NCBI GenBank assembly: GCA_947497315.1
Contig: CANMFX010000003.1
Span: 620,001-684,000, forward strand
Direction of reading: 5' to 3'
DNA from: an uncultured Sphingomonadaceae bacterium
GTDB lineage: Bacteria; Pseudomonadota; Alphaproteobacteria; Sphingomonadales; Sphingomonadaceae
Length of the DNA stretch: 64,000 nt
Shown here in pieces: positions 23,502 to 33,859 of the stretch (position 1 is the stretch's first letter; each line of letters opens with the position of its first letter). A program made the translations under genes and the position numbers. The notes below the pieces were generated by a model. The model was not told where the DNA came from and did not search any database. It was given only the letters and a program-made list of their open reading frames with translations.

Positions 23502-24980
23502 ATGATTTTGAATACAACTTTGAAGATGGAAAAGGCGATGGCCCAAGCGGAAAATTATTCCGATTGGTCTGATGCCGCAGCTGCCCACGACCGCTCCACT
23601 GGCGTCGACAAGTGGAAGGCCTCTGACGATAGCAAGCATTTTGATAATGCCTCTATTCGCAGGCGTTTGAAACGCTTGTCAAAGCTTTGGAAAGCCCAGG
23701 ATAATGCGGGCCTGCTCTATGCATTGAATGAAGGTATTCACGGTAATATGGATGGTATGGGCAATGACCGCCTGCACCAAAAAGCCAAATTTGGCACCAA
23801 GCAACTGATTCAGGATTATGTGGATGCCATTGTCAATTCGCTAGAATATCTGGCGAGTGATAAGGTTGATGACATTCCCTTTGAAGAGAAACTGGATTTC
23901 TTTCGTCGGGCGCAACATTGCTATGGTCGCTCTGCCTTTTTAATGAGCGGCTCAGGCGCCTTTCTGTATTTCCATATGGGTGTGGTAAAAGCTTTGTGGT
24001 CGGAAGGGCTATTGCCGCATATTATGTCGGGTTCCAGTGGCGGCTCTATCGTTGGCGCTTTGATCAGTACGCATGTGGATCACGAGATTCCGCCGTTTTT
24101 CGAACCTGAAAATCTGGTCACCGAAGGCAGCGATGAAATAGCCTCGCAGACGGGGTTGAGCATATTTGGTGGCACAAGGCGTCTGAAAATAGATGAGATC
24201 CGAGAGCGTATCAGCAATATGATCCCGGATCTGACATTTCAGGAGGCTTATGAACTGACCGGGCGGCATTTGAATGTTTCGATCGCTCCAGCGGAAAAGC
24301 ATCAAACATCACGCCTTTTGAACGCTATTGCGTCACCCAATGTCTATATCCGGGAAGCAGTTATGGCTTCTTGCGCCGTACCGGGCGTTTATCCTCCTGT
24401 GACATTGGCAGCCAAGGATCACAAAGGGGAACGCAAACCTTATCTGCCCAATCGCAAATGGGTTGATGGTTCTGTTACTCATGACTTGCCGGCAAAACGG
24501 TTGGGCCGACTTTATGGAGTTAATCACCATATTGTCAGTCAGGCAAATCCGCTGATCACGCCCTTTGCGACTGACGTAAAGCAGCAGAGAACTCCTATTT
24601 CGGCAATTCGGAACGCAACTACTTCGACGATGAAGGCTTGGCTCAACGCCAACGTCGAAATTATGCAGAAGCCGCTATCCTATTTTCCGCGACTGAACAG
24701 TATAGCCAATATGACGCTATCCGTCATTAATCAGGACTATACCGGCGATATCAACATCATCCGTCCGACGATGTTCTGGAGCCCGGCCAAAATACTAAGT
24801 GATTTGTCGGTGGAAGAAATTAGTGAGCTGATCCAGCTTGGCGAGCGGACGACTTGGCCGAAAATTGAAATGGTGCGAACCCAGTCCAAAATCAGCCAGA
24901 CATTGGATCGCATATTGTTTGAATATGAAAATGAACTGGCCCATGATCACGAACTTGTGATGAAAAGGAAAATTGCTTGA
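23502..24980 (+). CDS. Patatin-like phospholipase with DUF3336-type N-terminus
   Basis: 492 residues. Patatin core: oxyanion G-S-G-A-F-L-Y-F-H-M-G-V-V, nucleophile Ser179 in G-S-S-G-G (177-181), and catalytic Asp322 in V-D-G-S. The ~140-residue helical N-terminus is of the DUF3336 kind found in yeast Tgl triacylglycerol lipases and bacterial relatives. This points to hydrolysis of triacylglycerol or phospholipid, fitting the storage-lipid genes around it. Several in-frame ATGs near the start (23502, 23526, 23538) leave the exact N-terminus open. The stop overlaps the next start. Confidence 0.9.
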   Translation: MILNTTLKMEKAMAQAENYSDWSDAAAAHDRSTGVDKWKASDDSKHFDNASIRRRLKRLSKLWKAQDNAGLLYALNEGIHGNMDGMGNDRLHQKAKFGTKQLIQDYVDAIVNSLEYLASDKVDDIPFEEKLDFFRRAQHCYGRSAFLMSGSGAFLYFHMGVVKALWSEGLLPHIMSGSSGGSIVGALISTHVDHEIPPFFEPENLVTEGSDEIASQTGLSIFGGTRRLKIDEIRERISNMIPDLTFQEAYELTGRHLNVSIAPAEKHQTSRLLNAIASPNVYIREAVMASCAVPGVYPPVTLAAKDHKGERKPYLPNRKWVDGSVTHDLPAKRLGRLYGVNHHIVSQANPLITPFATDVKQQRTPISAIRNATTSTMKAWLNANVEIMQKPLSYFPRLNSIANMTLSVINQDYTGDINIIRPTMFWSPAKILSDLSVEEISELIQLGERTTWPKIEMVRTQSKISQTLDRILFEYENELAHDHELVMKRKIA

Positions 24981-25831
24981 GGCATGAAGAAGCGAGTTTG
25001 ACCCTGGCCGCGCCATCGGCGGCCGCGGGTGCATCGCTTTATTGCCAAAGCTGGACGCCGGAATCTGCTGCGAAAGCGGTCATTATACTGGTTCATGGCT
25101 ATGATGAACATAGCGGGCGATACGGATATTTTGCGGATCACTGCACCAAACACGGGTTTGCGGTTCAAACCCTTGATCATTGGGGGCATGGAAAGTCGGA
25201 CGGAGCAAATGGCTTTGTTCCGGACTTTTCAGTTTATCATGATGGTTTGGATAGTCTGATCAGACAATTGCCTGCGGAACAAAAGGGGCTACCACTGATA
25301 TTGGTTGGACATAGTTTGGGCGGTTTAATTGGTGCGACCTACCTACTCAAAAATCCGTCTCGTTTCACGGCAGCTGTGTTGTCTGGCCCAGCGATTAAAG
25401 CGACGGAAGAACCTTCTGCAGTCATGAAGGGGCTCAGCAAACTTCTCTCAAAATTGGCGCCAAAAATGGGCGTTTTAGCATTGGATGCGAATGGAGTGAG
25501 CCGCGATCCGAAGGTTGTCGCTGATTATTTGGCCGATCCGTTGGTATCTGGTACCAAGATCAGTGCCCGGCTGGCAGCTGAAATGATGGCTAATATGGAG
25601 TTGGTGCAAAGTCACGCTGCCAAAATAACATTACCGATAATGCTGCTGCACGGCGGAAAAGACAGCCTGACAGCACCGGAAGGGTCGGTGTTTCTCAATG
25701 AGAATATTGGCTCCGGCGAAAAAATGTTGAAAATCTATCCGGAACTTTTTCACGAGATTTTTAATGAACCGGAAAAAGATGCGGTGCTGACGGATATGAC
25801 TGACTGGATGGATCGCATATTGACAAAATAG
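24977..25831 (+). CDS. Alpha/beta hydrolase, monoacylglycerol lipase type
   Basis: 284 residues starting at TTG 24977, which overlaps the patatin stop (TTGA). The serine is Ser113 in G-H-S-L-G-G; H-G at the oxyanion site is in V-H-G-Y-D-E-H-S-G-R-Y, the classic opening of Pldb/monoacylglycerol lipases. The lid region is ~140-200, and the terminal D and H lie in H-G-G-K-D-S-L and P-E-L-F-H-E-I. It probably completes breakdown of neutral lipid begun by the patatin. Confidence 0.9.
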   Translation: MRHEEASLTLAAPSAAAGASLYCQSWTPESAAKAVIILVHGYDEHSGRYGYFADHCTKHGFAVQTLDHWGHGKSDGANGFVPDFSVYHDGLDSLIRQLPAEQKGLPLILVGHSLGGLIGATYLLKNPSRFTAAVLSGPAIKATEEPSAVMKGLSKLLSKLAPKMGVLALDANGVSRDPKVVADYLADPLVSGTKISARLAAEMMANMELVQSHAAKITLPIMLLHGGKDSLTAPEGSVFLNENIGSGEKMLKIYPELFHEIFNEPEKDAVLTDMTDWMDRILTK

Positions 25832-25862
25832 CGACCAGAAGTGCGAACGGGGGAATTTCGCA

Positions 25863-26792
25863 ATGATGATCATTCTATATATTTTATGCGCTTTAGTACT
25901 GGCTGTATTGGTCGCCTATTTCGTGTTTCCGAAGGCGCTTTATGATCTCATGACCGCTTCGCTGCGCCTCCGGGGAGGAATGCGCCAAAAATCCATCAAA
26001 GTCGGTGACAATGTCTGGCCATATCTGGAAGGTGGGCGAGGGGATGGTGTGCCACTCGTGTTGTTGCATGGTTTTGGTGGTGACAAGGATAACTGGTCAA
26101 TCTACGCACCGCATATCACCAAGGATCATCGTTTGATTGCACCGGACCTGCCAGGCTTTGGTGAGAACGACCGATCTCTGGATCGTGACTATGATATCCT
26201 CTCGCAGGTCCATCGACTGAGTGCGTTTCTGGACGCTATTAATGTCCCCAAATGTCATATCGGCGGCAATAGCATGGGCGGATTTATCGCTTTGCAATTT
26301 GCAATGGAATATCCGGACAAAGTTGCATCATTGACCTTGTTTAACAATGCTGGCGTCATGGGCGACGTGAAGAGCGAATTGGCAATTGCGGCAGAAAAAG
26401 GCGAAAATTCTCTGGCGCTGAGCGACATCTCCGATGTTGACCGGCTTATGGCTTTCGTTTCTTATAAACCAGTGCCGATGCCAAAGAACTTCAAAAAAAT
26501 ATTCTTTGCAGAGGCCGAAACCCATAGAGAAGTTCTCGACAAGATATTCTGGCAAATTGCCGGTGCCGGTATCAATCACCCGCTCAATGATCGCCTTGAC
26601 GAGGTAATTGCACCAACGCTGATTATCTGGGGGCGCCATGATCGGTTGATTGATGTTAGCTGTGTTTCGGTGCTGGATGATGGAATAAAAAATAGTGAAG
26701 CGGTTATTTTCGAAGAAACCGGGCATATTCCGATGATCGAGAAACCCAAAGACACTGCCGCCGTGCACCGGGCATTTCTTGCAAAACACTAA
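25863..26792 (+). CDS. Alpha/beta fold hydrolase with N-terminal membrane anchor
   Basis: 309 residues. The N-terminal ~22 residues are hydrophobic (M-M-I-I-L-Y-I-L-C-A-L-V-L-A) with no cleavage site, so it is likely anchored in the inner membrane. The hydrolase core has H-G-F-G-G-D, nucleophile Ser137 in G-N-S-M-G-G, aspartate in W-G-R-H-D-R and histidine in E-T-G-H-I-P. It resembles lipase/esterase and haloperoxidase-type proteins; the substrate is unknown. It lies 31 bases after the monoacylglycerol lipase gene, probably in the same operon. Confidence 0.87.
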   Translation: MMIILYILCALVLAVLVAYFVFPKALYDLMTASLRLRGGMRQKSIKVGDNVWPYLEGGRGDGVPLVLLHGFGGDKDNWSIYAPHITKDHRLIAPDLPGFGENDRSLDRDYDILSQVHRLSAFLDAINVPKCHIGGNSMGGFIALQFAMEYPDKVASLTLFNNAGVMGDVKSELAIAAEKGENSLALSDISDVDRLMAFVSYKPVPMPKNFKKIFFAEAETHREVLDKIFWQIAGAGINHPLNDRLDEVIAPTLIIWGRHDRLIDVSCVSVLDDGIKNSEAVIFEETGHIPMIEKPKDTAAVHRAFLAKH

Positions 26793-26860
26793 ATTTCCAG
26801 CCAGTTTAGCGACATAGAACTCCTCAAGAGGGGAGTCGCAATAAAATTTGGGGAAAAGCT

Positions 26861-27862
26861 ATGAAATTGCGCGTCGGGCTATTGGGTGGAGGGTCCTGGG
26901 GGACAACCGTGGCATCACTGGTCTCGCGCAATGCCCCAATCAAGATATGGGCCCGAGATGGCGACACCGTCGACGATATTAATAACAATCACCGGAACAG
27001 CAAATATTTGCCTGATGCCGAGTTGCCGGAAGCACTGGAGGCCACGGGTGATATTGGTGAGGCCGTCTCTGACGCTGACGTACTTGTCATGGGAATCCCG
27101 TCCAGCAATTTTCGCAATGTACTGGAAGAAGCCAAATCCTATTTGCGGCCCTGGGTTCCTGTGATCAGCCTGACAAAAGGTTTGGAACTCTCTACCGGCA
27201 AACGTATGACTGAAGTCATCGAAGACGTCTTGCCGGGTCACCCTGTTGGTGTTCTGACCGGCCCCAATCTGGCGCGGGAAATCATGGCCGGACAGGCTGC
27301 GGCCAGCGTGATCTCTATGGAAGACGAGATTATCGTCAAGCAACTCCAACAGCTTTTTCACTCTGGAATGTTTCGTGTTTATACCAATACTGATTTGTTG
27401 GGCTGCGAGTTGGGCGGAGTCTTGAAGAACATCATCGCCATTGCCGTTGGCATGGGGGATGGATTGGGCGCAGGAGATAACACCCGGTCCGCTCTGATCA
27501 CTCGCGGTCTGGCAGAGATCACACGATTGGGCGTCGCGATGGGCGGTCGCCCGGAAACTTTTGCTGGCCTTACGGGAATGGGGGATATGATCGCCACCTG
27601 CACAAGTCCATTGAGCCGAAACCGGCATGTCGGTGTAGAGCTTGGCAAGGGACGCAAAATTGACGATATTATTGAAGAAATGCTGATGGTTGCCGAAGGT
27701 GTCAAAAGCGCGCCGACGGTTATGGCTTTGGCCAAGAAATATAATGTTGCAATGCCGATTGCAGAAGACGTGTTTGAAGTAACAAAAGGAACGCGTTCAG
27801 CTGTCCGCGCTTATCGTGGTCTAATCAGCGCATCTGCAGGCTCGGAGGCTGATGCTGGATAG
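26861..27862 (+). CDS. gpsA: Glycerol-3-phosphate dehydrogenase [NAD(P)+]
   Basis: 333 residues. It reduces dihydroxyacetone phosphate to glycerol-3-phosphate, the acceptor for the PlsB-like enzyme upstream. Landmarks: dinucleotide loop G-G-G-S-W-G-T-T, L-T-G-P-N-L-A-R-E-I, catalytic Lys in G-G-V-L-K-N-I-I-A-I-A-V-G, G-L-A-E-I-T-R-L-G, and T-C-T-S-P-L-S-R-N. Full length for GpsA. Its position closing the lipid gene row makes metabolic sense. Confidence 0.96.
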   Translation: MKLRVGLLGGGSWGTTVASLVSRNAPIKIWARDGDTVDDINNNHRNSKYLPDAELPEALEATGDIGEAVSDADVLVMGIPSSNFRNVLEEAKSYLRPWVPVISLTKGLELSTGKRMTEVIEDVLPGHPVGVLTGPNLAREIMAGQAAASVISMEDEIIVKQLQQLFHSGMFRVYTNTDLLGCELGGVLKNIIAIAVGMGDGLGAGDNTRSALITRGLAEITRLGVAMGGRPETFAGLTGMGDMIATCTSPLSRNRHVGVELGKGRKIDDIIEEMLMVAEGVKSAPTVMALAKKYNVAMPIAEDVFEVTKGTRSAVRAYRGLISASAGSEADAG

Positions 27863-28153: not shown

Positions 28154-29107
28154 ATGGATTTACGAAGCCAAGCCGTAAACGATGTCGAGACTGATCTCGT
28201 ATTCGACGCAACCGAAACGCTGATCACACCGCACCGTGGTCTTGGCTATGATATATTCAAACAGAACTTCAATGAAATTGATTTGCGGTTCGATAAAACG
28301 GATGAAATTTTCTGGTGCTATATGAACCAGAAATCTCGCCCCAGCTACACATATGAATTGGGCGATGAAATCCAGATGGTCCAAGACTGGATTCATACAA
28401 ATTATGCCATGGATGGAACCCACACCGAGGATCCAATGCGCTATTTTGTTTGTGGATCGCACACGCCTGGCATTTACAATCTCGGCGGTGACCTGAAACA
28501 TTTTGCGGACTGCATTCGGCGTCGCGACTTGGGTGCTTTAAAGAAATACGCCCGGACCTGCGTGCATATGCAATATGCGAACAGCACGGGTTTTGGTGCC
28601 CCAATTATCACCATGGCTTTGGTGCAGGGCGATGCGCTCGGTGGCGGTTTTGAACATGCTTTGGCTTTTGACATTCTGGTGGCCGAGAGAAGTGCAAGGC
28701 TGGGCCTGCCCGAAATTTTGTTCAATCTCTTCCCTGGTATGGGTGCCTACAGTTATCTGCGTCAGCGTCTGGGCCGCAAAGAGACAGAACAGTTTATTCT
28801 CGAAGGAAAACTGTTCACTGCCGAACAGCTTTATGAGATAGGCGTGGTCGATATCCTCGCTGAGGACGGCAAGGGTGAGCAAGCCATCATTGAATATACC
28901 CAGCAAAACCGGAAACGGTTCCACGCTGAACGTGCTGTCTACAAGGCGCGTCGCCTCGCCAATCCCGTAACGATCGATGAATTGCTCGAAATTACGGAGA
29001 TGTGGGCAGAAACGGCGCTTTACCTTGATGAAGTCGATGTAAGAAAAATGGAACGCCTTGCAAATGCGCAAGAGCGCCGAATTGCCCGCTCGCTCAAGAC
29101 TGTTTAG
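28154..29107 (+). CDS. rpfF: RpfF-like crotonase, putative DSF-family signal synthase
   Basis: 317 residues from ATG 28154, picked because GGAGAG ends seven bases before it; a GTG at 28139 and ATG at 28148 are also in frame. A crotonase fold with the two glutamates used by Xanthomonas RpfF for dehydrating and hydrolysing 3-hydroxyacyl-ACP: E167 in G-G-G-F-E and E187 in P-E-I-L-F-N-L-F-P-G-M-G-A. They are 20 residues apart, as are E141 and E161 in Xanthomonas. P-E-I-L-F-N-L-F-P-G-M-G is a strong RpfF signature. The N-terminus is ~26 residues longer than in RpfF of Xanthomonas (289 residues). The product would be a cis-2-unsaturated fatty acid signal. It converges with the RpfC-like gene, leaving eight bases between stops. 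A non-signalling enoyl-CoA hydratase role is the main alternative. Confidence 0.85.
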   Translation: MDLRSQAVNDVETDLVFDATETLITPHRGLGYDIFKQNFNEIDLRFDKTDEIFWCYMNQKSRPSYTYELGDEIQMVQDWIHTNYAMDGTHTEDPMRYFVCGSHTPGIYNLGGDLKHFADCIRRRDLGALKKYARTCVHMQYANSTGFGAPIITMALVQGDALGGGFEHALAFDILVAERSARLGLPEILFNLFPGMGAYSYLRQRLGRKETEQFILEGKLFTAEQLYEIGVVDILAEDGKGEQAIIEYTQQNRKRFHAERAVYKARRLANPVTIDELLEITEMWAETALYLDEVDVRKMERLANAQERRIARSLKTV

Positions 29108-29115
29108 CTACAAGC

Positions 29116-31698
29116 TTAGCCTGCTGCGCTATACCCATTATCGGCCTTGCCGTCTTGAGCCATTTTCGGATCGTTCAAGAAAGCTTTGATGAGTGACACT
29201 TCTTGTTCGATTTGAACGAGATATTCAAAACGCTTCTGCGTGAATTCTGATTCCGTTATGACTTCCAGGTGGCTGCAGATTTGAGACAATTTTTTTGCGC
29301 CGACATTGTTGGCACCGCTCTTGAAAGCGTGAGCATGGAAACGAAACTCTTCTACTTTTCCGCCTTCAACCGACTTTTTGAATGCCCTCATGATGTCTGA
29401 CGTATCCTCAACATATGCATCTATGATTGACTGAACGAATGCCTCGTCGCCTATGGATTTCAAATAGTCCATTTGCTCTGGATCAATTGGTGGTTGAGGG
29501 TCATCTGTCAACCTTGATCCGATGGTCTGCACAACGTTGAATGGATCATCATGCAGCGATTTTTGCACTTCATCTGCCTTATGGAAATTGCCTGTCTGTT
29601 CCGCAACGGTGTCAAGCAAAACGCTTGCTTCTATTGGTTTTGTGAGCCGTAAATCCATGCCGGCATCAAGGCATTTTTTCTCTGTTTCCGAGGTAGAATC
29701 GGCAGTCAGGCCGATAATCGGGATATGATTGCGAGGACCTTCTATCTGACGCCAGAGCTTGCAGCATTCTATGCCACCAATATTGGGCATATTGACGTCC
29801 AGAAACACGATGTCGAAGGAATATTGCTCCAGTTCATCAAGAGCTTGCTCACCATCAGAAACAACGACTACTTCATGACCAGCATTAATAAGGATGGTTT
29901 GCAAGACCATCTGGTTGGTGCGATTATCATCAGCAACCAATATCTTGAGCGAAGCAGATGTTCGAATGATGCGGTCAGGGTTGTCTTCCAATTTCTTGCC
30001 GATACGACTGAAAGAACAACCAATTTGAATAACGCTGCGCACGGTATCAAAGTCTGCAGATGCCGGTAATACTGATGCGAAAGCGGCTCGCAGTTTGATC
30101 TCGTCCAGGCTCTTGCTGCCACTTTTGGAGAGTAGGACAGGTGGCAATTTGGCCTCGCGAAAATGATTCCAGAATATGGAGTCATCTTTGTGTTGCTCGG
30201 CGATTTCTTCATCGAGAAGAGCCATATCATAAGAGGAGAGTGAGCGGTTTTTAAGGATCGATTCCAGGCGATCATTCTTTGCGCATTGAATATGTTCAAT
30301 GACAACAGAACCGTCATTCTCTTGCTCAATATTCGGCCCATTCAGACCAAAGCCCAGCGACAATATTCTGTAACTTTCTGGGTTCGGCATAGTTTCATTA
30401 TCGACAACCGGTTCGATTGGGCAAGCAAGAGTGAACGTGCTGCCCTTTCCGACAGTGCTTTCCAATGCAATATCGCCGCCCATTTGCATTGCCAGTTGCT
30501 TACAAATAGCAAGGCCCAGCCCCGTGCCGCCAAAATTGTCAATGATACTGTCATCGGCTTGTTGGAAAACGCCGAATATTTTCTCATGCGCTTCGGCTGG
30601 TATGCCCGGTCCAGTATCAGTGACTGAACACCATAACACGGGAGCTTCAGAGACATCATCTTCTATTCCGCACTTCAATGTTATCGTACCTGCTTCCGTA
30701 AACTTTACGGCGTTGCTGGTCAGGTTGATCAGGATATTGCGGATATGGTCAAGTTGTCCCGCAACAGCTTGGTCGCTCAGTGCTTCGGCTTCTAGATGAA
30801 TTCTCAGACCTTTTTCCGCCGCCGCCAATTGCAAGATGTCGCGTACATCGGTCAATACATCAACGATACTGAACTCTTTTGGTTCCGGCAGTTCTTCTTG
30901 CGTATCCGATCTCGCAAAGGTCAATAGCTGGTTGATCAGATGTAACAGGTGCTGGCCGGCGGATACGCTGGTGCTCACCATCTGTTGTTGTGCTTCAGGC
31001 AACTTCATGTCGAGCAAGTGTGTGCCGTATCCGATAATGGCATTCAGCGGCGTACGCAGCTCGTGGCTTATACTTGCCAAAAACAGGCTCTTCGCTTTAT
31101 TTGCGCTTTCAGCTTCTCTGGTTGCTTTGGATATTTTGATAATCAGGGTCGAACAATATGCAGGAACGACAACCAAGCCGCCCAAGAGGCCTAAAGACAG
31201 GGATAAATTATGATGCCAGTAGGGCACGGAATATATGGCCCAACCGAATGACATTGTTCCTAGCGCAGCCGCGATGCCAAGCCATTTGATACCAAAGCGG
31301 AAGCCATAACCTAATATCACCCACAGATATAATGGATAGAGCGCAGCAACTGCGCCGCCGCCAATTTCAAACAAATAGGTCGATACACCGAAGTCAACCA
31401 CCAAGCCTGCCAGTCGTCGACTGTTGCTTGGTCCAGGCTTTAAGCGATAAGCGATAAAGATCGCCAGGCTGCCCAAAAGGTGCAGTTGAAAGCCGAGCAT
31501 CAGGTCTGCATTCCCGTCAAGGAAATAGGTGACGGTTAGTGCGATCACGATCAAAACCAGTCGGTTTATGATCATCTCTCTCTCGCGGTCGCGACCCCGC
31601 TCAGTAGCGTCGCTGTGATGTGAGTGACGATGATGATGAACGTGCCTGTGCGTGTTATGCTGCTTGGTAGAGCGCTTGCTTTGCAAGAAAGGTAGCAT
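29116..31698 (-). CDS. rpfC: RpfC-like hybrid sensor histidine kinase
   Basis: 860 residues from the ATG at 31698, preceded by GGAAGGA and lying four bases after the upstream gene's stop. Order: His-rich leader (residues 14-28); five predicted membrane helices (~45-187) with G-Y-G-F-R-F-G and V-P-Y-W, closely resembling the RpfC sensor region; HisKA with H212 in S-H-E-L-R-T-P-L-N; HATPase (~310-430; D-T-G-P-G-I-P, G-G-T-G-L-G-L); a degenerate receiver (~445-565); a receiver with D634 in F-L-D-V-N-M-P; and HPt with H790 in H-A-F-K-S-G-A. TM5-HK-REC-HPt is the RpfC architecture that senses DSF and, in xanthomonads, also binds RpfF. Expected to phosphorylate the REC-GGDEF-EAL protein encoded upstream. 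Confidence 0.88.
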   Translation of the reverse strand: MLPFLQSKRSTKQHNTHRHVHHHRHSHHSDATERGRDREREMIINRLVLIVIALTVTYFLDGNADLMLGFQLHLLGSLAIFIAYRLKPGPSNSRRLAGLVVDFGVSTYLFEIGGGAVAALYPLYLWVILGYGFRFGIKWLGIAAALGTMSFGWAIYSVPYWHHNLSLSLGLLGGLVVVPAYCSTLIIKISKATREAESANKAKSLFLASISHELRTPLNAIIGYGTHLLDMKLPEAQQQMVSTSVSAGQHLLHLINQLLTFARSDTQEELPEPKEFSIVDVLTDVRDILQLAAAEKGLRIHLEAEALSDQAVAGQLDHIRNILINLTSNAVKFTEAGTITLKCGIEDDVSEAPVLWCSVTDTGPGIPAEAHEKIFGVFQQADDSIIDNFGGTGLGLAICKQLAMQMGGDIALESTVGKGSTFTLACPIEPVVDNETMPNPESYRILSLGFGLNGPNIEQENDGSVVIEHIQCAKNDRLESILKNRSLSSYDMALLDEEIAEQHKDDSIFWNHFREAKLPPVLLSKSGSKSLDEIKLRAAFASVLPASADFDTVRSVIQIGCSFSRIGKKLEDNPDRIIRTSASLKILVADDNRTNQMVLQTILINAGHEVVVVSDGEQALDELEQYSFDIVFLDVNMPNIGGIECCKLWRQIEGPRNHIPIIGLTADSTSETEKKCLDAGMDLRLTKPIEASVLLDTVAEQTGNFHKADEVQKSLHDDPFNVVQTIGSRLTDDPQPPIDPEQMDYLKSIGDEAFVQSIIDAYVEDTSDIMRAFKKSVEGGKVEEFRFHAHAFKSGANNVGAKKLSQICSHLEVITESEFTQKRFEYLVQIEQEVSLIKAFLNDPKMAQDGKADNGYSAAG

Positions 31699-31702
31699 GC
31701 CG

Positions 31703-33859
31703 CTATCCTTCCGCCGAACCGGTAACTTGTTTCCGTTGTAATCCGAACAATTTCGACAAGTCTGTCGCACGCTGTGGCCGCGCTATTTTGAAGCCTTGAA
31801 TCTCGTCACATCCTGACGCTTGAAGCAGTTCAAGCTGGGCATCATTTTCGACGCCTTCAGCTATAACCCGCATATCCAACGCGTGAGCGAGATGAGAAAT
31901 TGTACCTATAATCGCACGGTCTGCTGCAGAATGCTCAATCCGCGATATGAAAGTACGGTCAATCTTCAAACAATTGGCCGGTAAATCTCTTAGATATTGT
32001 AGTGAGGAATAGCCGGTTCCAAAATCATCTATCGAAATACCGACCCCAACCTCGCGCAATCTGATCAAAGAGTCGCTCACATGATCATTGTTATTCAGCA
32101 GCAATTCTTCGGTAATCTCAATCACAATTTTAGAAGGATCAATCTGGTTCAATTCAATGTTTTTCAACACTTCTTCGCAGATTTTCTGATTCTGAAACTG
32201 ACGCGGGGATACATTGATAGCAACACGCGGAAGATCAACACCTTCATCCGCTGATCGTCTTATTTGGCTGCATACCTCAGCGATTACCCATTTGCCGACG
32301 GAATCCATTATTCCAGTGTCGTCTGCGACGCGAATGAACTGCACCGGCAGCAGCCGTCCACGCGTTGGATGATCCCAGCGTATTAGTGCTTCCAAACCTA
32401 CATATTCTAATGTTTTGGCATCGACTATTGGTTGATATTCAAGAGCGAACTGATTCTGACTTAAAGCGTCACGCAATTCAATCTCAAGCGAGGCATCTGC
32501 CTGGGCAATTTGGTTCATGCCCTCGGAGAAGAAACGATGACAGTTGCGGCCATTTGCCTTAGCATCATACATCGCGAGGTCAGCAAGCCTTAGCAATTCT
32601 TCATATTCGTCGCCATCATTCGGAATCAAGCTGACGCCGATACTGGCTCCGATGACTTGTTCGATTCCGCTTATGGAATATGGCTCATTAATTGCTTTCA
32701 GTATTTTTGTGCAACGAGAGTTGATCGCATCAGGTCCGCTGACTTTGCCAAGAATAATGGCGAATTCATCACCGCCAATACGTGCCGCGAAATCGTCCGG
32801 TCCGATAATATCGAGCAACCGTTCTGCAACTTCCCGCAGCAATGTATCACCGCTGTGGTGGCCGCGTGTATCGTTGATGACTTTGAACCGGTCGAGATCC
32901 AGCAGCAGTAGAGCTGATTCCTGACCGGTCTTTTGACAGGTGTCGATTGTTTTGCGTACTTTCTCCGCTAGCAGCGCACGATTGGGCAGCCCGGTCAGCA
33001 TGTCGTGCAAAGCCAAATGGGTGCGGTGTTCTTCGGCAAACTTGCGGGCAGTGATGTCGACCGCAGTGGTCAATACACCGATTGTCTCGCCTTTATGATT
33101 CAGCAGCGGAGACTTGTTGCAGTGAAAAATCAATTCAACGCCATCGCTGGAGAATTTTTCCTCATAATGTGGGATCGGTTGTTCCGACTTCAGCACTATC
33201 TCGTTTCTGCGATTTGAATTTGTTGCCAGGCCAGGGCCCAGTATCTCACCAAAATCTCGGCCGACCATCTCATCGGGGGTTTTATCAAAAAGTGCCGATT
33301 GATAGGCATTGGTGAATAAGCAGCGACCGGCTCGATCGGTGGCATTGATCATGATGGGTATTGTATCGATGATCTGTTCAAGCATGCTCTTGTTTGCTGG
33401 TGCGTTACTATCCGGCAGATCGGAAAGTGCGGCATGCTTTCTTTCGATTTCGGATGCCCGTTTTCTCAGGTTATCGCTTTTTTGGCTTTTTGTCAGAAGC
33501 GATGTCGCGCGCCGGCAAAATTCCACATGCGATACTGGGCTCTGCAGAAAATCAGTGGCGCCGGCATCTAGCGCCGACAGCCGACATTCACGGTCTTGAT
33601 GGGCGGTTATTACGATTGCCGGCACGTCACCACATTTAGACATTTTGCGGACTTTTTTGATGAACTCTGCGCCGTTCATCTGAGGCATCCGATAGTCAAC
33701 AACCAACAGTTCCGCGCTGTTGCTGTTGAGCCATTCAAGCGCTTCCAACGGATCAGCAAATGTGACGGAGGAATACTCTTCCCCCATCATAGTCACAAAC
33801 TGGGCATAAATCCTGAGATTTGTGGGCCGGTCATCGACGATTAGAACGCGCGTGGTCAT
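31703..33859 (-). CDS. REC-PAS-GGDEF-EAL cyclic di-GMP enzyme
   Basis: 718 residues from ATG 33859, where the receiver domain begins; a TTG at 33886 would add nine residues. Receiver ~1-120 with phosphoacceptor D55 in V-V-D-Y-R-M-P. PAS ~155-265 (T-I-P-I-M-I-N-A-T-D; ends V-D-I-T-A-R-K). GGDEF domain with an intact R-I-G-G-D-E-F. EAL domain with E-A-L-I-R-W, D-D-F-G-T-G-Y-S-S-L and K-I-D-R-T-F, so both synthesis and hydrolysis of cyclic di-GMP look chemically possible. It is the first gene of a two-gene unit with the RpfC-like kinase, the place occupied in xanthomonads by RpfG (REC-HD-GYP). The PAS-GGDEF-EAL part recalls RpfR of Burkholderia and Cronobacter, which binds BDSF directly, but whether this PAS domain is related to that sensor I cannot tell. 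Confidence 0.92.
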   Translation of the reverse strand: MTTRVLIVDDRPTNLRIYAQFVTMMGEEYSSVTFADPLEALEWLNSNSAELLVVDYRMPQMNGAEFIKKVRKMSKCGDVPAIVITAHQDRECRLSALDAGATDFLQSPVSHVEFCRRATSLLTKSQKSDNLRKRASEIERKHAALSDLPDSNAPANKSMLEQIIDTIPIMINATDRAGRCLFTNAYQSALFDKTPDEMVGRDFGEILGPGLATNSNRRNEIVLKSEQPIPHYEEKFSSDGVELIFHCNKSPLLNHKGETIGVLTTAVDITARKFAEEHRTHLALHDMLTGLPNRALLAEKVRKTIDTCQKTGQESALLLLDLDRFKVINDTRGHHSGDTLLREVAERLLDIIGPDDFAARIGGDEFAIILGKVSGPDAINSRCTKILKAINEPYSISGIEQVIGASIGVSLIPNDGDEYEELLRLADLAMYDAKANGRNCHRFFSEGMNQIAQADASLEIELRDALSQNQFALEYQPIVDAKTLEYVGLEALIRWDHPTRGRLLPVQFIRVADDTGIMDSVGKWVIAEVCSQIRRSADEGVDLPRVAINVSPRQFQNQKICEEVLKNIELNQIDPSKIVIEITEELLLNNNDHVSDSLIRLREVGVGISIDDFGTGYSSLQYLRDLPANCLKIDRTFISRIEHSAADRAIIGTISHLAHALDMRVIAEGVENDAQLELLQASGCDEIQGFKIARPQRATDLSKLFGLQRKQVTGSAEG

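Follow-up and report, generated by a model that had tools for sequence, protein, structure and literature searches.

What does an RpfC-type sensor kinase control when the response regulator beside it is not RpfG? This question is raised by a locus in an uncultured Sphingomonadaceae bacterium, found in a window of 64,000 nucleotides (nt), the whole stretch of DNA analyzed here (G000:C3:620001-684000, from a 3.4-Mb, 100% complete genome, G000). Signaling by fatty acids of the diffusible signal factor (DSF) family has been described, in those parts of the literature available to us, from xanthomonads, Burkholderia, Cronobacter, Pseudomonas, and acidophiles (Leptospirillum, Acidithiobacillus), and the accessible part of PMC4504480 names two core systems, RpfC/RpfG and RpfR. 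In the window, a gene for an RpfF-type synthase converges on a gene for an RpfC-type kinase, and a REC-PAS-GGDEF-EAL protein stands where RpfG would, an arrangement that a preliminary description had read from the letters and that gene order and domains bear out. We conclude that the locus is probably a DSF-family quorum-sensing module, with an RpfF signal, RpfC-type sensing, a phosphorelay, and a cyclic di-GMP output, and that this DSF-type module with a nonstandard output is one member of a broad alphaproteobacterial set.

The RpfF-type crotonase, a putative DSF-family synthase of 317 amino acids (aa), is encoded on the plus strand (rpfF, 28154..29107, starting at ATG 28154), tail to tail with a minus-strand operon from which it is separated by 8 nt. 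In that operon, a REC-PAS_4-GGDEF-EAL response regulator (718 aa, 31703..33859, with its start, ATG 33859, read in the DNA) is the upstream partner of the hybrid sensor kinase (~860 aa, 29116..31698). For the kinase, the most likely start is ATG 31698, 4 nt past the TAG of the regulator and preceded by AAGGA within the end of the regulator gene, which fits translational coupling; its open reading frame (ORF) is also listed in longer versions from GTG and TTG starts. Pfam matches above cut-offs are ECH_1 for the synthase; HisKA, HATPase_c, Response_reg, and Hpt for the kinase; and Response_reg, PAS_4, GGDEF, and EAL for the regulator. The Xanthomonas rpfF/rpfG-rpfC locus shares the RpfF-type synthase, the RpfC-type kinase with REC and Hpt, and the regulator–kinase operon convergent on rpfF, but its output is REC-HD-GYP instead of REC-PAS-GGDEF-EAL. 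The xanthomonad-like layout seen in the preliminary description recurs in all nine HD-GYP loci found, every one of them outside class Alphaproteobacteria. Loci of the window's genus keep the order rpfF> <kinase <regulator without exception (33 of 33: 27, plus six from genome contigs, five of which have the same RpfF as another genome in the count). Outside the genus it holds at 47 of 50 loci, and the three that depart from it are from Microvirga.

ECH_1 has 18 matches across the genome, of which the window's rpfF scores lowest. The best matches of its product in the Protein Data Bank (PDB) are 7zq7 (1.5e-54) and 3m6m (2.1e-51), the latter named "RpfF protein" and taken by us to be from Xanthomonas campestris; 5fus, presumably Burkholderia BCAM0581, and 6dgn follow at about 1e-46 to 1e-45, and the next hydratase in the ranking comes at 6.5e-15, ~30 orders of magnitude weaker. 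The protein passes the NCBIfam model NF006452 (PRK08788) with 348 bits against a cut-off of 177. It also has equivalents of the catalytic glutamates E141 and E161 of X. campestris pv. campestris, whose roles are given in the available part of PMC9040811, together with the glycines; these residues are kept in nearly all relatives, with an Asp for one Glu at three loci and an Ala for one Gly at one locus.

Placement of the synthase was examined in a quick tree of 97 chosen rows (the window, 93 loci, and three hydratases) and in a careful tree of 84 rows, for which L002_ECH, L173, L190, L167, L172, L188, L106, L163, L186, L144, L206, L205, and L136 were dropped. In the careful tree, two hydratases encoded in the window's own genome separate from the rest with support of 100/99, and the window's RpfF lies among the RpfF rows, in keeping with the assignment first made from the letters; the smallest well-supported sets that hold it contain 2, 5, and 8 rows, the last comprising seven GGDEF-EAL rows and one unclassed row. 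In the quick tree, one of the three hydratases (L002, with a branch length of 10) was placed among the RpfF rows, and the window's set of eight consists of its genus, two Sphingorhabdus loci, and Novosphingopyxis. Because many deep branches are weak, we use these trees for membership and not for detailed history. Identity as an ordinary enoyl-CoA hydratase is unsupported by the trees and by the PDB ranking, and the family and catalytic residues together suggest that RpfF makes a cis-2-unsaturated fatty acid.

The kinase has the architecture of RpfC, with a multi-pass membrane input domain (31141..31587, from an AlphaFold2 (AF2) model and alignment with kinases of HD-GYP loci), HisKA and HATPase_c (30415..31095; Pfam, residues 226-452 of the listed ORF), a receiver (29605..29943; Pfam) whose top receiver-only match in the PDB is that of RpfC (3m6m_D), and an Hpt domain (29260..29427; Pfam and alignment), all on the minus strand. 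None of the phosphorylation sites (HisKA His, REC Asp, and Hpt His) is missing from the window, and the 125 aligned relatives have them as well, one alignment gap aside. The membrane part can be aligned over its full length with its counterpart in kinases adjoining REC-HD-GYP regulators. In the quickly built kinase tree (70 rows, the window plus 69 chosen of the 125 kinases), the alphaproteobacterial rows are set apart, with support of 99, from seven HD-GYP and two unclassed rows, and 41 of 42 GGDEF-EAL kinases form one clade (support 100). This clade also takes in L153, a locus with a kinase output, and leaves out the other rows with a REC-PAS-histidine kinase (REC-PAS-HK) partner.

The DSF-docking motif of RpfC, R15-A-D17-S18-E19-H-A-Q22, has been dissected in X. 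campestris, where replacing R15, D17, S18, E19, or Q22 lowers DSF sensing, with the exception that S18T does not impair it (PMC5391125, in the part available), and E19 is said in the accessible part of PMC6536496 to be conserved in all homologs having the RpfC-type input domain. The equivalent segment of the window's kinase (31573..31593, minus strand, located by alignments from the residues given in PMC5391125) reads R-D-R-E-R-E-M, with D17 and E19 kept, S18 replaced by R, and Q22 replaced by M; an Arg precedes D17, its placement differing between two alignments. Because these two docking residues are changed, we class the protein as RpfC-type and do not file it as RpfC, and their loss means that the ligand may differ. 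Of the GGDEF-EAL-linked kinases, 49 of 50 from outside the genus and 32 of 33 from within it retain E19; among the 50, D17 is kept in 46, R15 in 39, and S or T at position 18 in 30, while position 18 is R in 32 of the 33 genus kinases. At the position of Q22, M or I is found in 47 of the 50 and in all 33 genus kinases, against Q in 8 of 8 aligned HD-GYP-linked kinases (nine exist), 17 of 18 REC-PAS-HK-linked kinases, and 3 of 3 REC-HK-linked kinases; 11 kinases with no assigned partner have M in five, Q in five, and a gap in one.

This pattern lends itself to a rival explanation that we regard as possible but doubtful, in which the module is the same and its signal is not classical, the kinase branch with M or I at Q22 sensing a different acyl signal from its own RpfF. 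The division at Q22 and the nearly genus-wide R at S18 speak for it, as does the iron-containing redox domain to which RpfF is fused in some relatives, a possible source of a changed product. However, the change at Q22 follows kinase ancestry and not output, since M is found in L153, which has a kinase output but lies within the GGDEF-EAL clade, and Q in L165, which has a GGDEF-EAL output but lies outside that clade, and a functional tie of this residue to output type was rejected for that reason; the argument for another acyl signal is one of sequence and not of chemistry.

The AF2 model of the input domain, built from 32 sequences, has a mean predicted local distance difference test score (pLDDT) of 90.7. 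Foldseek returned no match to it in the PDB at E 0.001 or better, and VIA-align matched it to six-helix membrane anchors of adenylyl cyclases and to ImcA, with no quorum-sensing receptor among the matches listed. Loop charges in the model suggest that the N-terminus of the sensor is inside, unlike in the published five-helix model of PA1396 of Pseudomonas aeruginosa. The available part of PMC6536496 calls the input domain of PA1396 RpfC-like and DSF-responsive, describes interspecies DSF sensing with residues in transmembrane helices IV and V, and makes no mention there of an adjacent rpfF.

The regulator begins with a receiver (33515..33847, minus strand, as are its other domains) in which the phospho-Asp and Thr are present and the conserved Lys is replaced by Ser, followed by PAS_4 (33041..33385; Pfam E 1e-11; mean pLDDT of the REC-PAS AF2 model 87.3), a GGDEF domain (32543..33013) with an intact motif and no I-site Arg, and an EAL domain (31775..32479) in which every catalytic residue examined is intact. 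The residue check thus agrees with the earlier statement that both motifs are intact behind a receiver and a PAS domain. The EAL residues examined are also intact at every locus compared (33 of the genus and 53 others); the GGDEF motif is intact at all 33 and at 49 of the 53, the exceptions being SGDEF in three Microvirga loci and RSDEF in L165; L094 and L169 share their RpfF and may be one genome counted twice. At the position of the receiver Lys, GGDEF-EAL regulators have Ser in 32 of 32 genus loci and 48 of 53 others (Thr in three, Ala in two), REC-PAS-HK regulators have Ser in 20 of 20 (18 with and two without the kinase on the contig piece), and REC-HK regulators have Ser in two of three and Thr in one, whereas HD-GYP regulators have Lys in eight of nine and Arg in one. 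The alphaproteobacterial regulators thus have in common a receiver trait that is absent from HD-GYP regulators. Set beside the Xanthomonas type, the window's module differs in its receiver, in S18 and Q22, and in a separate kinase branch, and the receiver Ser and the lost docking residues argue against a plain copy of the Xanthomonas system.

By definition the regulator is neither RpfG nor RpfR. The Pfam scan gives REC-PAS-GGDEF-EAL with no HD-GYP family, and the protein has a receiver and shows no similarity outside GGDEF-EAL to the RpfR-type proteins compared, the rpfF neighbors at L187 and L189. RpfR has an N-terminal FI domain. In the Burkholderia RpfF/RpfR system, which uses the Burkholderia diffusible signal factor (BDSF), RpfR lacks a receiver and acts without a kinase, and the window's regulator resembles the RpfR-type neighbors only in GGDEF-EAL. 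The RpfR-like output of the preliminary description accordingly stands as domain architecture but not as orthology: BLAST aligns GGDEF-EAL only, at 35 to 36% identity, no better than several other GGDEF-EAL proteins, and finds no similarity between the N-terminal or PAS part of the regulator and the L187 and L189 proteins.

A second rival, which we consider unlikely, makes the PAS domain another DSF receptor, so that the regulator would merge a membrane signal, received by phosphorylation, with a cytoplasmic one, received by binding. The PAS_4 assignment favors it, as PAS_4 is the part of RpfS that binds DSF and PAS the part of RpfR that binds BDSF (PMC4504480, in the part available), and REC-PAS is the part shared where outputs differ. 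On the other side, the BLAST result just given holds for the PAS domain, its matches to PDB sequences are weak (best E 0.006), and PAS domains bind many things. A fold search with the REC-PAS model gave a match list filled by receivers, which carries no information on the PAS domain.

Within the genus the three genes travel together, so that their arrangement is not a matter of chance. rpfF was found in 30 of 32 genomes, and 28 of the 29 other rpfF-bearing genomes were retrieved with flanks, G002 (a 6.4-kb contig) being left out. In 27 of these 28, the three genes occur in one order on one contig, with the regulator of L069 cut by the contig end; in G026 the locus is split, with kinase and regulator at the end of another contig. 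The two genomes without rpfF are G022, which is 73% complete, and G009, which is complete. In G009, there was no rpfF match at 1e-25 and no kinase match at 1e-60, and the regulator search at 1e-60 gave nine matches, none starting before residue 172 and none above 41% identity, which are thus other GGDEF-EAL proteins that lack the window's receiver; the control congener G003 gave a 78% match over residues 1-709 of 718. The three genes are therefore jointly absent from one complete congener. Where present, the module is conserved and under purifying selection, as tests on the two closest pairs gave ratios of nonsynonymous to synonymous substitution rates (dN/dS) between 0.014 and 0.070 across its three genes.

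Upstream of rpfF (23502-27862) lie genes for a patatin (DUF3336), two alpha/beta hydrolases, and gpsA, and past the regulator come a 201-aa protein with no Pfam match, thyA, and an autotransporter. The patatin, the hydrolases, and gpsA stand directly upstream of rpfF in the genus loci retrieved, gpsA being unmatched in L054, and the block is kept in G009 also, which lacks the module. The gpsA-thyA flanks of G009 are intact, and the module's place between them is taken by two small ORFs and, on the opposite strand, a gene for 1142 aa.

Beyond the genus, we surveyed named loci, keeping the best 80 of 568 relatives, a scan that favors loci resembling the window's. An RpfC-type kinase with REC-PAS-GGDEF-EAL was found at 55 of the 80 (six of the window's genus, 48 others, and L094). 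The remaining 25 comprise seven REC-PAS-HK loci, one REC-HK locus, four loci with REC-PAS and no output domain found beside an RpfC-type kinase (L109, L121, and L128, with ORFs of 253 to 286 aa, and L122, by tblastn only), six with an incomplete or unclear partner (L077, L107, L117, L123, L126, and L137), and seven at which no sensor was found (L080, L106, L111, L118, L127, L129, and L149), L080, L111, and L127 being near a contig edge. tblastn placed the kinase in L094, L169, and L171, and a few odd record titles among the 80 (a Burkholderiales bin, "Mycobacterium", and a Terriglobia bin) were taken as given. The same triple occurs in Ancylobacter, Kaistia, Acidocella, Roseomonas, Gluconacetobacter, Aureimonas, Inquilinus, and Microvirga loci and is therefore not special to Sphingomonadales; the preliminary description was right in outline, a DSF-type module with a swapped output, but too narrow.

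Of 241 genomes drawn evenly from the Alphaproteobacteria, 18 gave an RpfF-family match at 1e-55. An RpfC-type kinase lies nearby in 13 of the 18, with a REC-PAS-HK (nine) or REC-HK (two) partner in 11 and with GGDEF-EAL in two (the window and L165); near the other five matches no such kinase was found, a contig end cutting off two of these loci. With two GGDEF-EAL loci against 11 ending in a kinase, the GGDEF-EAL output is common among the nearer relatives of the window and not across the class. The PRK08788 cut-off is exceeded in 86 of 396 Sphingomonadales genomes, and 20 loci retrieved from among these comprise 12 with no sensor, six with GGDEF-EAL lacking a receiver, and two REC-PAS-HK near a contig end. 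A phylum sample gave an RpfF match in 51 of 397 genomes, with regions retrieved for 26 of the 51 besides the window.

Across these loci the kinase–synthase cassette is conserved while the output changes between HD-GYP, histidine kinase, GGDEF-EAL, and REC-PAS alone. The alphaproteobacterial REC-PAS-HK loci (for example, L102, L112, L140, L153-L157, and L159-L161) share with the window the cassette, the REC-PAS front, and Ser at the receiver Lys (18 of 18), but they end in a second histidine kinase. A quick, midpoint-rooted REC-PAS tree (64 rows) separates the two outputs with support of 86 and puts L165 on the kinase side; together with the kinase tree, its plain reading would be one main change of output, with L153 and L165 as later exchanges. 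RpfC-type kinases in alphaproteobacteria are already known, since the available part of PMC8895600 lists the RpfC-RpfG pair there by KEGG orthology. Among the papers listed in our literature searches, with subscription papers mostly outside their reach, we found nothing on an RpfF with a REC-PAS-GGDEF-EAL partner or on DSF signaling in Sphingomonadales, and nothing on the variety of outputs of alphaproteobacterial RpfC-type kinases.

We propose that RpfF would make a cis-2-unsaturated fatty acid, which the membrane input domain of the kinase would sense; the kinase would then autophosphorylate and pass the phosphate from HisKA through its REC and Hpt to the receiver of the REC-PAS-GGDEF-EAL protein, which would alter cyclic di-GMP. 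Net degradation by EAL would be expected, because the EAL residues examined are kept in 53 of 53 non-genus relatives and the GGDEF motif in 49. The receiver of the kinase may also restrain RpfF, by analogy with xanthomonads.

Several observations weigh against this module as proposed. RpfF falls below the NCBIfam equivalog for DSF synthase RpfF, NF053515, with 217 bits against a cut-off of 550, and is therefore filed under the wider PRK08788 family only. Among six other proteins scanned, L184 passes (580) and L181 (370), L078 (214), L042 (200), L187 (184), and L189 (181) miss; since L187 (457 bits) and L189 (497 bits) are clear matches to 6dgn "RpfF", a protein below this cut-off may still be a synthase. 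The sensorless L042, from an XrtA cluster, scores like the window on PRK08788 and the equivalog (351 and 200 against 348 and 217), so that these models show family and not function. In the kinase, S18 and Q22, needed for full DSF sensing in X. campestris, are replaced; in the regulator, phosphorylation may not switch a receiver that lacks the conserved Lys in the usual way. The genome has 11 EAL matches, and the module is thus not its sole cyclic di-GMP input. Finally, the identity of the DSF signal, its binding, the phosphotransfer, and the sign of the cyclic di-GMP response are deduced here from sequence. We nevertheless find it improbable that RpfF is a housekeeping thioesterase or hydratase and that the kinase senses something else, an explanation for which the missed cut-off, the L042 scores, and the sensorless RpfF-family genes adjoining XrtA-cluster genes could be cited, but which sits poorly with the continued adjacency of rpfF and kinase in distant alphaproteobacteria, their joint absence in G009, and the likewise low equivalog scores of L187 and L189.

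Some relatives of the synthase occur in other settings. At four order-level relatives (L039, 7820-9886; L040, 8019-9911; L204; and L205), RpfF is fused C-terminally to an iron-containing redox domain, for which the label Haem_oxygenas_2 comes from a Pfam run on L040 only, and at L188 (10058-10780) a separate gene of the same iron-redox kind lies beside RpfF; such a domain could oxidize the acyl product. Four proteins from the XrtA/PEP-CTERM cluster of L042, the one locus for which NCBIfam names were checked, were compared with the 15 sensorless Sphingomonadaceae RpfF loci (L041, L042, L152, L194-L199, L201-L203, L206, L208, and L210), and every locus has a homolog of one or more of them; the amidotransferase occurs in 14 of the 15 and is the only one of the four in four loci. 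At L168, L191-L193, L200, L207, and L209, RpfF adjoins a GGDEF-EAL protein with no receiver, which in L168, L191, and L193 starts, by eye, with a membrane-like stretch. A plasmid search gave 14 records with RpfF-family matches, all below 60% identity. In the two annotated plasmid regions (L213 and L214), rpfF converges on a gene for an EAL protein, and the RpfF relative is named in both records only "crotonase/enoyl-CoA hydratase family protein"; a third plasmid record carries no annotation.

A wider view, offered tentatively, is that of a separate alphaproteobacterial DSF-type branch in which a fixed cassette of RpfF and RpfC-type kinase would have been replugged, through a REC-PAS adapter with Ser for Lys, to GGDEF-EAL, to a histidine kinase, or to no output; the changed docking segment in the window's branch may mean a different acyl signal, and the sensor, which would share the six-helix fold of adenylyl cyclase anchors and ImcA, might be part of a wider lipid-sensing membrane fold. 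If the module works as proposed, fatty-acid quorum sensing extends to many alphaproteobacteria. The window's genus, in which one complete genome is without the whole set of three, provides a ready comparison. The loci would also form a natural series of outputs on one sensor, which lets one ask how a receptor kinase is rewired to a new effector and which bears on what the REC-PAS adapter adds.

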